Below are positions 19,287 to 24,423 of a DNA stretch of 64,000 bases, piece by piece. The stretch spans positions 1,544,501 through 1,608,500 of the forward strand of contig NZ_CP012154.1 of NCBI RefSeq assembly GCF_001187785.1, in the 5' to 3' direction. The stretch comes from Wenzhouxiangella marina (GTDB lineage: Bacteria > Pseudomonadota > Gammaproteobacteria > Xanthomonadales > Wenzhouxiangellaceae). The notes below the pieces were generated by a model. It was given only the letters and a program-made list of their open reading frames with translations, was not told where the DNA came from and ran no database searches. The position numbers and the translations under genes were made by a program. How positions within the stretch are numbered: the first letter of the stretch is position 1; each line of letters opens with the position of its first letter.

Positions 19287-20822
19287 TCAGTCGGCGCCGC
19301 GCTTGCGGGCTCGGGCCCGTTCGATGGCGGCCTGGATTTCATTCCTGGCCTGATCGCCCTGGGCAAGCTTCTGGCGCCGGCGCTCGCGTCGTGCTTCGCG
19401 TTCGGCTTCCTCGATGGCCAGGCGCTTCTCGCGCGCTTCGTGCCGGCGGCGCGCCAGGGCCGCGCGGCGCTGGTCGAGGAGCTGGATGCGTCGTTCGGCC
19501 TTGCCGTGACGATACCAGTCGACCAGGGGAATCTGGCTCGGGCAGACCTGGGCACAGCAGCCGCATTCGATGCAGTCGAACAGATCGAGTTCGGCGGCGG
19601 CTTCCAGGCGCTCGCCCTCGATCAGGCGGTAGAGCTGCTGGGGCAGCAGGCGCGCCGGGCAGACGCGGACGCATTCGCCGCAGTTGATGCAGGGCATGAC
19701 GGGCCGGCGTGGCTGAAGCTCGGCCTCGGTCAGGGCGAGCAGGCAGTTCGTGCCTTTCGTGACCGGGATCCGGTCCGACACCAGCGCCGTGCCGGACATG
19801 GGCCCGCCCAGGATCAGCCGCGTGCAATCGTCGCTCAGGCCGCCGGCCGTCTCGAGCAGGTGAGCGATCGGCGTGCCGATCCGGGCGATCAGATTGCAGG
19901 GGCTCGCGATGCCGGGACCGGTCACCGTGACGATGCGTTCGGTCAAGGGCAGCCCGAGTACCACGGCATCGTGTGCAGCCGCCGCCGTGGCCACGTTGTG
20001 CACCAGCACGCCCAGGTCCTGGGGCAGGCCATCGAAGGGGACTTCGCGGCCGGTCAGAACCTGGATCAGCTGGCGTTCGCCGCCCTCGGGGTAGAGGCTG
20101 GGCACTTTGACCAGGCGCATGGGCAGACCGGCCTCGACCCCCGCCATCGCCCGGTGCAGCCGCGATTCGGTCTCTCTCAGCGGGTCCTCGATGGCCAGGA
20201 TCAGTTCCCTGGCACCGCAGGCGCGAGCGAGAATCTGCCCGCCCAGCACGATGGCCTCGGCGCGGCTTCTCATCAGGGCTTCGTCGCAGGCGATCCAGGG
20301 CTCGCATTCGGCGCCATTGAGGATCAGGGTGTCGAGCGAGTCCCAGTCGCCGCGCAGCTTGGCCGCCGTCGGGAAGGCCGCCCCACCCAGCCCGGCCAGA
20401 CCCGCGTCGCGCAGCTGGTCCACCAGGCGATCCCGATCGAGGCTTTGCCAGTCATCGAGGGGGCGAGGCTCGGCGGCGCGATCTTCGCCGTCGGCGATCA
20501 GGCTCAGGCAGGGTAGTTCATGGCCGGGTGGCCAGACAGCCGGCCTGAACTCGACCGGCCCGATCCGTCCCGAGGTCGGGGCATGGGTGGTCAGCTCGAA
20601 ATCGCTGCTCGCCTGGATCAGGACCTCGCCGCGAGCGACTCGATCCCCTTCCCTGACGCAGGCCTCGACGGGCTGACCCCGTCGGTCGACCAGGGGCAGG
20701 TACAGGCGCTCGGGCAAGGGTGCTCTTGCCGGTGGTGATTCACAGGCGGCCGTCTTGTGGTGGTCCAGACGGAGCCCGCCGGGAAAGGCATGCAGCGGCG
20801 CGTCGAGGATCGAGTCGCTCAT
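19287..20822 (-). CDS. rnfC: Rnf electron-transport complex subunit C
   Basis: The 511-residue peripheral subunit contains the NuoF-like NADH/FMN region ([41 protein letters not shown]). Two [4Fe-4S] motifs follow, [13 protein letters not shown] and [15 protein letters not shown]-terminal Arg/Glu-rich coiled-coil tail spans about 440-511. RnfC is the NADH site of the Rnf complex. Its ATG overlaps the rnfB stop (20819-20822). Confidence 0.95.
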
Positions 20823-21370
20823 GCCAGGCTCATGGGAATGCGTCGATCAGCGCCCGGGCGGGGCGGACGGTAGGCCTGGGATTTCGGCAGCAGGTCGATG
20901 CAATCGACGGGGCAGGGTGGCAGGCAGAGTTCGCAGCCGGTGCACTCGGCCTCGATCACCGTGTGCATCTGGCGAGCCGCACCGAAGATCGCGTCCACGG
21001 GGCAGGCCTGGATGCAGAGCGTGCAACCGATGCAGCGGTCTTCGTCGATGCGAGCGATCACCGGCGCCTTGTGTTCTCCGCGGCTCTCGTCGAGGGGCTT
21101 GGGGTCGACCTGGAGCAGTTCGGCCAGGGCCTGGATGCCGGCTTCGCCACCGGGCGGGCACTGGTTGATCTCGGCCTCGCCGTCGGCGATCGCCTGGGCG
21201 TAGGGGCGGCAGCCCGGGTAGCCGCATTGGGCGCACTGGGTCTGCGGCAGGATCCGGTTGATCTCCTCGACCAGGTCCCCTTCATCCGGCCGCAGCCGAC
21301 GGCCCAGCCAGAGCAGCAGGACACCCACCAGGGTCACCAGGGCAGTCAGGGTCAGCAGCGGGGACAGCAT
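20819..21370 (-). CDS. rnfB: Rnf electron-transport complex subunit B (ferredoxin)
   Basis: The 183-residue subunit has an N-terminal membrane helix (1-24), then the four-cysteine 4Fe4S domain (CAQCGYPGC plus a later CPPGG). Two ferredoxin clusters follow, [12 protein letters not shown] and [12 protein letters not shown]. It shuttles electrons between ferredoxin and the membrane core. Instead of following rnfA directly, it is preceded by a 145-nt spacer and a foreign-looking 2.5-kb segment. A minus-strand TATCAT (21415-21410) may serve as its own -10 box. Confidence 0.94.
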
Positions 21371-21515
21371 CGAGCGGGCATCCGTGAGCGCGCGCAGAAC
21401 ATGAGGCGCATGATACCCCCGGCGCCCGGTGCAGCGGTCGACGTGGTCCGAATCGAGTTCGCCGTGGCCGAGGGTGACAGCGATGGGCCGTCATCGCTCG
21501 AGTTCCAGGTCGAAC

Positions 21516-22487
21516 TCAGCGCCCGAGTCGGCTCAATCGGGACCGCAGATAATTGTGAAAGACCAGATACCAATCGTAATGAATGGGACTCGTCGTCTGG
21601 CGGATGGCATCGGCAAGCGATGTCGGCGAGTTGCACAATTGCCCGAACTGGAACTTCTGCAAACAGTAGCGGATGACGATCGGATGGTATTCGCCGACAC
21701 AGCCGTCGGTTTCCGAGCAGATCAGGGTCAAAGCGACATCGCTGATGATGTGCGGGGCAATGAATCTGAACTCTGGAGCGCTCAGCCTCTCCGAATCAAT
21801 AAGCCCTCTGTCTGCAATCACCCCAAGAAGGTTTGCAACGCCTCCTTCATCCAGGCGGTCCAGGGACGAACGCAACAAGCGGATGGACCCGTCCACCAGG
21901 GCCTCCGAGACGCCGAACTCGTCGACCTCGGAAGCAAGCTGACTTCTTTCATCTTCAGGGTTCCAGTCGTCGCTCAAAGACTGCTCGAGGGCATCCAACG
22001 TCGCCAGACTCGCTTCCAGATCGACATTGCCGCAGAACTGGGCCAGCCTAAGGGTTCCATTGGCGAACTCGGAGTTCAATCCAAGGCTGGCCAGTTGCTC
22101 GCCAGGAACACGGCTCATCGACCGGGCCTGTTGGCAGGGAGCCGACCACAGGATCACGTTCTCCCTGAATTGCCTTTCGGTCCAGCCGAAGTGCTTCGCT
22201 GCGTCGCGAAGGAATTGCGTCGCGGTCGGAGCGGATGAAAGGGCCGGGCGACCGGGCTCCGGAGTCCTGGTGGCAGGCTCCGGCAGGTCGTCCCTTTTCC
22301 CTGCGGGCTCGCCGAAGGAACCGGAATCGGCCGGATGAGCTTCATCAGCGCCGCTGGCTTCCGCGAGCGGGGCTCGAGCACCGCCCCTCGGATCCGATAA
22401 CTGCCAATCCCGGGTCTTCCAGCCGTGGAAAAGAGTAACGGCCAGAACGATCATGGCGACGATGCTCAGAGTCATGAATCGCTTCAT
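21516..22487 (-). CDS. Unrecognised membrane-anchored/exported protein between rnfA and rnfB
   Basis: The 323-residue product starts with an uncleaved-looking membrane segment (about 4-20). A Pro/Ala/Glu-rich linker runs to about residue 85, and an alpha-helical C-terminal region with several cysteines follows (SAPCQQAR, LAQFCGNVDLEASL, LICSETDGC, YCLQKFQFGQLCNS). I recognise no family. Base composition is somewhat lower in GC than the neighbours. It starts at ATG 22487 (the 22550 alternative lacks the membrane start). It lies within the Rnf locus on the same strand, but a functional link is not shown. Confidence 0.7.
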   Translation of the reverse strand: MKRFMTLSIVAMIVLAVTLFHGWKTRDWQLSDPRGGARAPLAEASGADEAHPADSGSFGEPAGKRDDLPEPATRTPEPGRPALSSAPTATQFLRDAAKHFGWTERQFRENVILWSAPCQQARSMSRVPGEQLASLGLNSEFANGTLRLAQFCGNVDLEASLATLDALEQSLSDDWNPEDERSQLASEVDEFGVSEALVDGSIRLLRSSLDRLDEGGVANLLGVIADRGLIDSERLSAPEFRFIAPHIISDVALTLICSETDGCVGEYHPIVIRYCLQKFQFGQLCNSPTSLADAIRQTTSPIHYDWYLVFHNYLRSRLSRLGR

Positions 22488-22771
22488 GGGAAGTTGCTTC
22501 TCGCCGTTCGAGTGGGCTGGGTCGTGCTGCGCCTGCGCTTGACCTGGCACCGCAGGCAGCCCGGTTCTTTGGAGAGCGCCAGGAGCTGGTCGACAGTGTA
22601 CGGTGTGCCGGTGCTCCTGGGGCCCCAGGTTCGGCTCGGCCGCCGGGCAGGGTGCAGGGCGCGTATCATTGATCGGTATTCAGGCGACGGCACGGGCCTC
22701 GGCACTGGGCCGCTCCGGGCTCGTGAGCCTGCCCGCTCCGGCGACCTGGCTCCTGGAAGAAGGAGGAATGC

Positions 22772-23404
22772 ATGCAGAGGAAATTCGTCTGGATCGTGGT
22801 GATCGCCGCCGCCCTCTGGCTGACCTGGCCCGCCCGATTCGAAGCCGGCTACAGCGAGACCCTGGCCAGCCTCGGCTTGCCGGCGCCCCGACCGGGCGCC
22901 GGGCCGAGCATCGAGGAGCCGCCTTTGCAGCGACTGTTCGAGAGTCCCCAGGCCTTCCGGGCCGAGGATCTCGAAATCCGCCTTCGGGCCGAGTTCCAGG
23001 TGGCGGCCCGCATTCTGTCCAGGCGTGATTACCGCGGCGACAACTGGGCATCGCTGGCGCCGATCGATCTGGCGCTCGGCTGGGGGCCGATGTCCGATCC
23101 CGAGGTGCTCGAGCAGATCGAGATCAGCCAGCGAGGCCGCTTCTATTTCTGGCGTGTGGACCAGTTTCCCATTCCGCGGGCACAGATCGAGCAGTCGTCG
23201 GCGAACATGCATCTGATTCCGGGCAGCCCCGAACTGTTCGAACGGCTCAAGACCGTGGAAGCGAGTGATCGAATCCTGCTGCGCGGATTTCTCGTCGATA
23301 TCGACCGTGACGATGGCTACTACTGGCGCACCTCGACGCGTCGCACGGACACGGGAAATGGCGCCTGCGAGTTGCTGCTGGTGACTGATTTCGAGCCGCT
23401 CTAG
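22772..23404 (+). CDS. Conserved-looking exported protein of unknown function
   Basis: The 210-residue protein has an N-terminal hydrophobic segment (about 4-20) and a compact domain with RDYRGDNWASLAPIDLALGWGPMSD, ISQRGRFYFWR, SSANMHLIP and a strand-rich end (RILLRGFLVDIDRDDGYYWRTS). It looks like a small beta-rich (possibly OB-type) periplasmic domain, but I assign no function. A perfect AGGAGG (22761-22766) lies 5 nt before ATG 22772. It is divergent from the unknown gene at 21516 and convergent with rnfA. Confidence 0.75.
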   Translation: MQRKFVWIVVIAAALWLTWPARFEAGYSETLASLGLPAPRPGAGPSIEEPPLQRLFESPQAFRAEDLEIRLRAEFQVAARILSRRDYRGDNWASLAPIDLALGWGPMSDPEVLEQIEISQRGRFYFWRVDQFPIPRAQIEQSSANMHLIPGSPELFERLKTVEASDRILLRGFLVDIDRDDGYYWRTSTRRTDTGNGACELLLVTDFEPL

Positions 23405-23430
23405 CCCTCGTTGGTCATGAGCAATGAGGG
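23405..23430 (+). terminator. Stem-loop directly after the 22772 gene
   Basis: CCCTCGTTG (23405-23413) and CAATGAGGG (23422-23430) form a 9-bp stem with one G-T pair and an 8-nt loop, beginning one base after the stop codon. Its downstream flank is TTAG, into which the mobile element inserted, so the original T-rich tail may have been disrupted. Confidence 0.65.
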
Positions 23431-23434
23431 TTAG

Positions 23435-23459
23435 GGAACCTCTGAACAAGTCTACGCGG
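23435..23459 (+). repeat. Left terminal inverted repeat of the MITE
   Basis: Twenty-five bases identical to the reverse complement of 23820-23844; begins GGAACCTCTG and ends CTACGCGG. Confidence 0.95.
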
Positions 23460-23819
23460 GCGCGACGGCGCCTTTGCGGGAGGCTCCGGCTTGGCTTGGG
23501 CGAGCGCCGTTTCGTGCCAGGTGCGGTTTGCCGAAGGCAAGAAGCGCCTGGTGACGAAACGATCAGCGCGTGTGGTTTGGTCATTCCAAATGAGCGAACC
23601 CAAACGAGACGGAGGCCCCGCAAAGGCCCGTCCCGTATGGGTTTCGCCGGAGAAGCCGCATCTCGAACGTTGCGCCACTCGGCCGTAACGCGCTGATCGT
23701 TCTTCCGGCAGGCACTTCTTGCCCTACGGGCAAACCGTACCTGCCTGCAGAACGGCGCTACGGCTACTGTCACTCGTGTCGCACCGCACGATCTGCGGCT
23801 TCTCCGACTGAAACGCGCT

Positions 23820-23844
23820 CCGCGTAGACTTGTTCAGAGGTTCC
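23820..23844 (-). repeat. Right terminal inverted repeat of the MITE
   Basis: Perfect inverted copy of 23435-23459; followed immediately by the right TTAG target duplication. Confidence 0.95.
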
Positions 23845-24423
23845 TTAGAGCTTGGCGAAGCCGGTGAAGCCCATGAAGGCCAGGGCCATCAGGCCGGCGG
23901 TGATCAGGCCGATCGGCGCGCCACGGAAGCTCTCGGGGACGTCGGCCAGGGCCAGGCGTTCGCGGGCGGCGGCCAGGGCCACCAGCACGGCTCCGAAACC
24001 GAGCGCCGCGCCGAAGCCGTAGACGGCCGATTCGACCAGATCGTGCTGTTCGCGCAGATTGAGCAGGGCCACGCCGAGCACGGCGCAGTTGCTGGTGATC
24101 AGGGGCAGGTAGATGCCGAGCACCCGATGCAGCAGGGGCGCGGAATGGCGCAGGACGAGTTCGGTGAGCTGGACCAGGGCCGCGATGACGACGATGAAGG
24201 CCACCGTGGACAGATAGTTCAGGCCCAGCGGCTCGAGCACCCACTGGGAAAGAAGGTAACTGGCCACCGAGGACAGCGTCAGCACGAAGGCGGTGGCCAC
24301 GGCCATGCCCGCCGCCGATTCGACGCTGCCCGAAACGCCGAGGAAGGGGCACAGGCCGAGGAACTGGATCAGTACGAAGTTGTTGACCAGGGCCGCCGAG
24401 ACGATGATCAGGAGCAGGTCCAT
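23845..24423 (-). CDS. rnfA: Rnf electron-transport complex subunit A
   Basis: The 192-residue six-helix subunit has [46 protein letters not shown] and the C-terminal GFTGFAKL. The conserved cysteines of LGLCPF and TSNCAVLG bind the intramembrane cluster shared with RnfE. It follows metG by 24 nt and is probably co-transcribed with it. Its stop codon is formed by the target-site duplication of the adjacent MITE, and rnfB lies about 2.5 kb further on. Confidence 0.95.

Follow-up and report, generated by a model that had tools for sequence, protein, structure and literature searches.

A hairpin module nested in a putative IS5-group MITE at the end of rnfA in Wenzhouxiangella marina

The 410-bp element that adjoins the rnfA stop codon of Wenzhouxiangella marina is, in all likelihood, an IS5-group MITE, each arm of which was later invaded by a hairpin unit that appears to enter after AGC and was probably moved by an HUH enzyme. 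It lies in the window, which here means the whole 64,000-nt stretch of DNA analysed (NZ_CP012154.1, positions 1,544,501 to 1,608,500). We propose two steps in the following. First, an IS5-type DDE transposase acting in trans would have inserted the MITE at the 3' end of rnfA, in a TTAG. Because YTAR contains a stop triplet, TAA or TAG, and insertion duplicates the target, RnfA kept its stop. Second, each arm of the MITE would have been entered by a 66-69-nt hairpin unit. This unit appears to insert after AGC, in either orientation and with no target duplication, and it most likely travels as folded single-stranded DNA, moved by an HUH (Y1) enzyme for which the resident RAYT is a candidate.

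Of the two elements, the nested mobile hairpin holds more interest. The MITE adds a member to an ordinary, already known kind and occupies a harmless site. Two apparently unrelated transposition chemistries would be stacked within one natural 410-bp element, and before/after pairs suggest by which rule the inner one inserts. The spread of REP-like hairpins is described as poorly understood in the account given in PMC8266576; filled and empty MITE pairs make a rule for it directly testable. In the literature searched, we found no published description of the MITE or of the module, which is not proof of absence.

The element at rnfA and its family

The initial annotation described a 410-bp element with perfect 25-bp ends and a TTAG on either side, and the coordinates read exactly as claimed (Table 1). 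On direct reading, the 25-bp arms are exactly complementary; when three flanking bases are counted, the inverted repeat extends to 28 nt at 96%. In the window, the 16-nt end is present twice, where shuffles predict 0.01 occurrences. The interior had been read as one long palindrome without a gene. The lack of a gene holds, since ORFs located in or almost wholly in the element reach at most 90 aa, and two longer frames (429 and 762 aa) enter it only as antisense of neighbouring genes. The strong fold also holds, being far better than that of shuffled sequences (z -12.8 for 23431-23848 as RNA; z -14.4 for 23435-23844 as DNA). The single long hairpin does not, as the fold is three-armed and includes two foreign hairpins. 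Similarly, a hairpin does abut the left end of the element as described, but the name terminator does not suit it: it has no T-run, and the terminator scan did not report it.

Table 1. Features at the 3' end of rnfA, in window coordinates
Feature	Coordinates	Strand	Basis or remark
Convergent ORF, 210 aa	22772..23404	+	no Pfam match
Short hairpin abutting the MITE	23405..23430 (approx.)	.	sequence reading; terminator scan
TTAG target duplication, left copy	23431..23434	.	direct sequence reading
Putative IS5-group MITE, long form with two nested hairpin modules	23435..23844	.	410 bp
Left terminal inverted repeat, 25 bp	23435..23459	+	sequence reading and repeat search
Left nested module, 66-nt unit (GCCGTT...GCGT), after AGC 23503-23505	23506..23571	+	covariance model 23503-23572, 72.5 bits
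Right nested module, 69-nt unit, after AGC (23757-23759 on minus)	23688..23756	-	covariance model 23687-23759, 68.7 bits
Right terminal inverted repeat, 25 bp	23820..23844	-	sequence reading and repeat search
TTAG target duplication, right copy	23845..23848	.	includes rnfA stop, 23845-23847 (TAA on minus)
rnfA (RsxA), intact, 192 aa	23845..24423	-	Pfam PF02508 (Rnf-Nqr), 6e-58

The element belongs to a family. The genome of W. marina (G000, a single contig of 3,675,202 bp) contains 13 further copies, one of which is truncated (L046). Among the 13 two-ended copies, that of the window included, 11 retain an intact 4-bp duplication (nine CTAG, one TTAG and one CAAG) and two do not; an intact YTAR duplication, as had been anticipated for such a MITE, therefore flanks 10 of the 13. 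Matches at E <= 0.001 are present in 39 of 101 genomes, including 33 of the 43 genomes of the same family (W. marina among them); the six matches at order level are weak, with E between 1e-5 and 1e-3. A plasmid search with the element returned no match, and at eight loci Rfam had no match at gathering score for the MITE or the module, its lone sub-threshold hit (E 0.17) lying outside the MITE.

A full-length partner was sought through its transposase domains. Searches of the W. marina genome for PF01609 (DDE_Tnp_1) and PF05598 (DUF772) gave zero matches. PF05598 is present in 13 of 61 genomes, and 30 of its loci were examined for paired MITE-like ends. The congener G018 has an IS of 1160 bp with the ends GGAGCCTCTGAATAAG and a CTAA/CTAA duplication, and the congener G019 has three IS of 1156-1157 bp with the ends GGAAACTCTGAATAAC and YTAR duplications; both such ends were found at one of five DUF772 loci of G018 in the sequence examined and at all three of G019. 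The ORF of these four IS is 316 aa long in three and 248 aa in the fourth (L127), and the two transposases scanned, one from each genome, contain both DUF772 and DDE_Tnp_1. When the ends alone are compared, the IS and the MITE agree along some 15-18 bp, apart from one or two differing positions. The matching IS5-group element called for by the initial annotation is thus found in congeners and was not found in the genome of W. marina itself. As these congener elements have near-identical ends and YTAR duplications, the first reading stands: sequence comparison supports the rnfA element as a non-autonomous IS5-group MITE, and we infer that an enzyme of this group mobilised it.

Similar ends were also seen elsewhere. 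BLAST of two MITE copies against the contigs L150-L278 gave no match, so those contigs and the MITE probably have just their ends in common. Solo MITE-like ends at L054, L055 and L056 have CTAA/CTAG-type neighbours and no second end nearby. A Thiotrichaceae MAG has paired MITE-like elements of about 160 bp (L171, 1809-2132; L219, 941-1265), arranged head to tail with one TTAA in common, and elements of 150-280 bp with such ends also occur on Clostridia, Oceanospirillales and Xanthomonas contigs.

Core fold and placement at stop codons

Module-free copies of the MITE are 272-275 bp long and fold into an outer stem that bears two long arms, with a small hairpin in the middle. An alignment of 38 short copies combines 7 from W. 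marina with 31 from relatives, whose identity averages 87% and is never below 79%. Its consensus comprises 104 pairs; 97.9% of cells are paired, both partners have changed in 32 of the pairs, and the structure comes from the same alignment. Such covariation alone is no proof of RNA function, because template-directed correction can also match the arms of a palindrome.

At rnfA, the insertion was said to have spared the protein, and this is confirmed: besides the stop codon within the right TTAG, the RnfA C-terminus (FTGFAKL) terminates like that of relatives at the rnfA loci compared, which indicates that the protein is intact. The survey covered 26 same-family loci beside that of W. marina; one of them (L109) stops inside the gene, leaving 25 that are readable. 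None of the 25 has a MITE within 127 nt after the stop. Nor does any of them provide an exact empty site downstream of rnfA, as the sequence that follows the gene differs in all and is kept in no relative searched. In the window, rnfB (20819-21370) and rnfC (19287-20822) lie about 2.5 kb from rnfA, with the convergent ORF in between (window 19287-24423); by eye, rnfB-like sequence appears directly after rnfA in several relatives. In another species (L105, G011), a solo MITE-like end, GGGAGTCTCTGAACAAC, lies about 10 nt past the rnfA stop and may be a remnant.

Eight of the 13 two-ended W. marina copies are located at stop codons. Seven come from a codon-model gene caller and the eighth is rnfA, which this caller missed in the short flanks yet calls in the window; a lenient ORF test gives nine of 13. 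With the codon-model caller, the background at stops is 17 of 87 CTAG sites and 36 of 239 YTAR sites, against which seven of 13 has P values of 0.006 and 0.001, respectively (0.014 and 0.002 when in-gene sites are excluded). A poorer gene caller, discarded because it misses rnfA, counts five of 13, with a P value of 0.06 that rises to 0.26 once in-gene sites are excluded. Among relatives, 40 loci were taken, four of which were dropped for having no paired ends; 8 of the remaining 36 copies lie at stops, compared with 26 of 201 background YTAR sites. These counts give no strong rule, and stop-codon homing as a special mechanism was rejected. Considering that placement at stops is common in W. 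marina and weak in relatives, it probably reflects the YTAR target together with selection.

Another explanation takes the MITE for a conserved regulatory RNA located at gene 3' ends, which would make its placement at stops functional and the element itself not selfish. This fits the three-armed fold, conserved across species with compensatory changes, as well as the share of W. marina copies at stop codons. However, the counts in relatives against their background, the lack of a MITE at all 25 readable rnfA loci, and the possibility that palindrome correction co-varies the arms without any RNA selection all weigh against it, and we regard this explanation as improbable.

The nested hairpin module and its insertion

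The window copy measures 410 bp instead of 272-275 bp because each arm holds a 66-69-nt hairpin, the two being in opposite orientations; both modules are missing from the short copies. Both are present in three W. marina copies (the window copy and those at 3182553 and 3221910), the left alone in three (3448569, 38656 and the truncated 2080246), and the right alone in one (2748997). At the right site, the unit has opposite orientations in 3182553 and 3221910 on the one hand and in the window and 2748997 on the other. Among relatives, the left insertion of the window recurs in G019 (two copies) and G030 (partial), and the right one in G016 and G026, with the stem paired differently in G026; modules sit elsewhere in MITE copies of G016 and G017. 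With a caret marking the junction, the context is GAGC^ on the left and TAGC^ on the right in both orientations. Folding of the short copies places the right site within the hairpin loop that tips the right arm in 37 of 38, and the left site at a stem/internal-loop edge in all 38.

It could be argued that the long form is ancestral and that precise loss of both hairpins produced the short MITE, with no insertion at all. Long hairpins tend to be deleted in bacteria, and in the congener G016 a 411-bp MITE carries the right module at this same position. However, the other module of that copy is placed differently from the left module of the window, and the short copies of 272-275 bp are distributed across many genomes. 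Furthermore, left-only, right-only and double forms exist, the right module occupies one site in either orientation, and the ends of the unit are identical in unrelated hosts, including an IS91-type sequence with an empty homologue. We therefore consider the deletion scenario highly improbable and retain insertion.

Filled and empty sequences suggest that the module inserts directly after AGC and duplicates no target sequence. In the MITE, three events fit the form AGC^unit, with the unit ending in GCGT and no duplication. Outside the MITE, a filled and an empty IS91-type transposase sequence (L309 and L349) show the same fit, with no mismatch at AGC and no duplication; close to the L349 stretch is a reading frame that encodes a Zn_Tnp_IS91 domain, and the translated flanks read as though the module interrupts the same transposase gene. 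Two further comparisons (L313/L317 with L345, and L367/L368 with L349) differ by one base at the A of AGC (-3), and the filled/empty pair at L355 breaks the AGC rule. These fits were read from a minority of the alignments, most others giving no clear junction. Decayed IS91-type transposase sequence in three genomes also has modules, within it or next to it and at several different positions (L309, L312/L349, L327 and L355).

An alignment of 21 chosen copies of the module, 20 of them from 48 distinct contexts plus the right module of the window, supports three helices with 24 pairs, 96.2% of 502 cells being paired and 15 pairs changed on both sides. None of 500 shuffles scored as high on any of five measures, and slid controls reached at most 52.1% paired. 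The structure was taken from single folds, and RNAalifold yields an identical one. The internal loops, including a GG/AA loop, are conserved; a GNA triloop caps 39 of 49 three-nucleotide tips, and the tip pattern is seen in 54 of 89 distinct copies. The covariance model was built from the same 21 copies, among which were both modules of the window.

The module is a dispersed repeat of the genus. At least 46 copies are present in the W. marina genome (50 candidates scored), and 34 of 101 genomes have matches, including nine from outside the family (50 candidates per genome scored, under stricter filters). Apart from the MITE, it is found within REP hairpins, other palindromes and tandem arrays (period 64 or 67 nt), and beside RAYT genes. 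At 2.795-2.875 Mb of the W. marina genome (L360, L363), a REP-rich island consists of 462-bp tandem repeats of GTAG-REPs with the module, and the only Y1_Tnp gene found in the genome is nearby. The 462-bp spacing of modules near 2.8135 Mb had the look of an attC array, and integron cassettes were considered and rejected, since by eye the region is a tandem REP-rich repeat. In a genome from another family of the order (G081), at least 46 model matches were found; the copy that was read (L354) has a lower GC and the ends AGG...CCGTG, and it may represent a divergent module family.

The surroundings of the module bring in a further alternative, namely that the modules are the upper part of long, RAYT-moved GTAG-REPs and that the MITE obtained its copies via template switching or gene conversion between palindromes. 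In 66 copies chosen from model hits, together with two earlier ones and omitting the MITE modules, the repeats of one array and weak hits, GTAG lies within 18 nt upstream of 27, and the flanks could form at least six pairs around 56, a count made without a shuffle control. Of 49 short REPs counted in the W. marina sequence examined, none has AGC in its loop, so that in REPs the module is not readable as a simple insertion after AGC. Quasi-palindromes can recombine through template switching, and a member of another MITE subfamily (L041) has the same left module, which suggests conversion. Conversely, the ends of the unit are identical in hosts lacking GTAG, the insertion in the IS91-type sequence is free of duplication, and at least three separate MITE events took place at AGC sites. 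On balance, we find conversion from REPs unlikely, while giving it more weight than deletion or a regulatory RNA.

It is conceivable that the module forms a distinct class of single-strand mobile hairpin which specialises in other palindromes, whether REPs, MITEs or other repeats, at their loops and arms, and which would be recognised by its structure: the covarying stems, the GG/AA loop and the GNA triloop. It would then act as a hyperparasite using both its own HUH-type movement and the DDE-mobilised MITE. We put this forward tentatively, as a possibility that falls somewhat short of probable.

The candidate mover and comparison with known systems

The W. marina genome has one Y1_Tnp match (PF01797), a 169-aa RAYT gene at 2854943-2855449, located 298 nt from a module. 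Seven orthologous RAYT loci were compared, that of W. marina included, the others being at least 51% identical. Modules lie on both sides of the gene in G028 and G019 and on one side in W. marina, and G011 has a weak match; none was found beside the RAYT of G016, G023 and G027 within the sequence examined. Within the genus, the nine genomes that have a RAYT hit, two with fragments, hold more modules than the 21 that lack one (p 0.0005, uncorrected for phylogeny and assembly completeness), and several module-rich genomes have no RAYT hit (for example G006, 23 modules; G014, 17). GTAG (or GTGG) is absent at the foot of the left MITE module; at the right site the module-free copies read GTAGC, thus the GTAG there is the MITE's own. 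The E. coli RAYT needs GTAG, while other RAYTs tolerate changes, as far as described in PMC8266576. Taken together, we infer that the RAYT is the leading candidate for the mover, and the likeliest reading of the module is a REP-like hairpin that moves as a single strand and is carried by a DDE-mobilised MITE.

The outer element resembles IS5-group MITEs (IS5 family, YTAR) in its ends (GGRRCCTCTGAAYAA...), its 4-bp YTAR duplication, the lack of a transposase, its many copies and the presence, here in congeners, of IS with near-identical ends. It differs from them in a conserved three-armed interior of 272-275 bp and in the hairpin modules nested in some copies. As for the inner element, IS200/IS605-type elements insert 3' of a short target without target duplication and have a hairpin. 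As such elements are outlined in PMC6006769, the module is alike in its hairpin and its tandem unit-unit junctions and appears to be alike in its manner of insertion; unlike them, it has no internal transposase and consists of a single hairpin, with the RAYT as candidate mover.

A palindrome nested in a palindrome has a precedent in REP dimers located in long palindromes, GTAG-15 of Anabaena variabilis and CGTC-1 of Halothiobacillus neapolitanus (PMC3733652); in the passages of that paper cited here, their host palindromes are not called DDE-type MITEs and are presented without filled/empty pairs. There is also a likeness to REP/REPIN sequences and their RAYT (TnpAREP), which share with the module short, dispersed, imperfect hairpins with mismatched internal loops and a RAYT gene nearby; many copies of the module also sit within GTAG-headed hairpins. 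In contrast, the module is about 66-69 nt long with three helices, brings no GTAG to the MITE, and appears to have its junction after AGC, whereas the RAYTs described in PMC8266576 cleave mainly at CT or CA. For prediction, PMC6006769 defines a REP by a loop of 2-5 nt or one further bulge-joined stem, and by that definition, as worded there, the module is close to, yet outside, the REPs.
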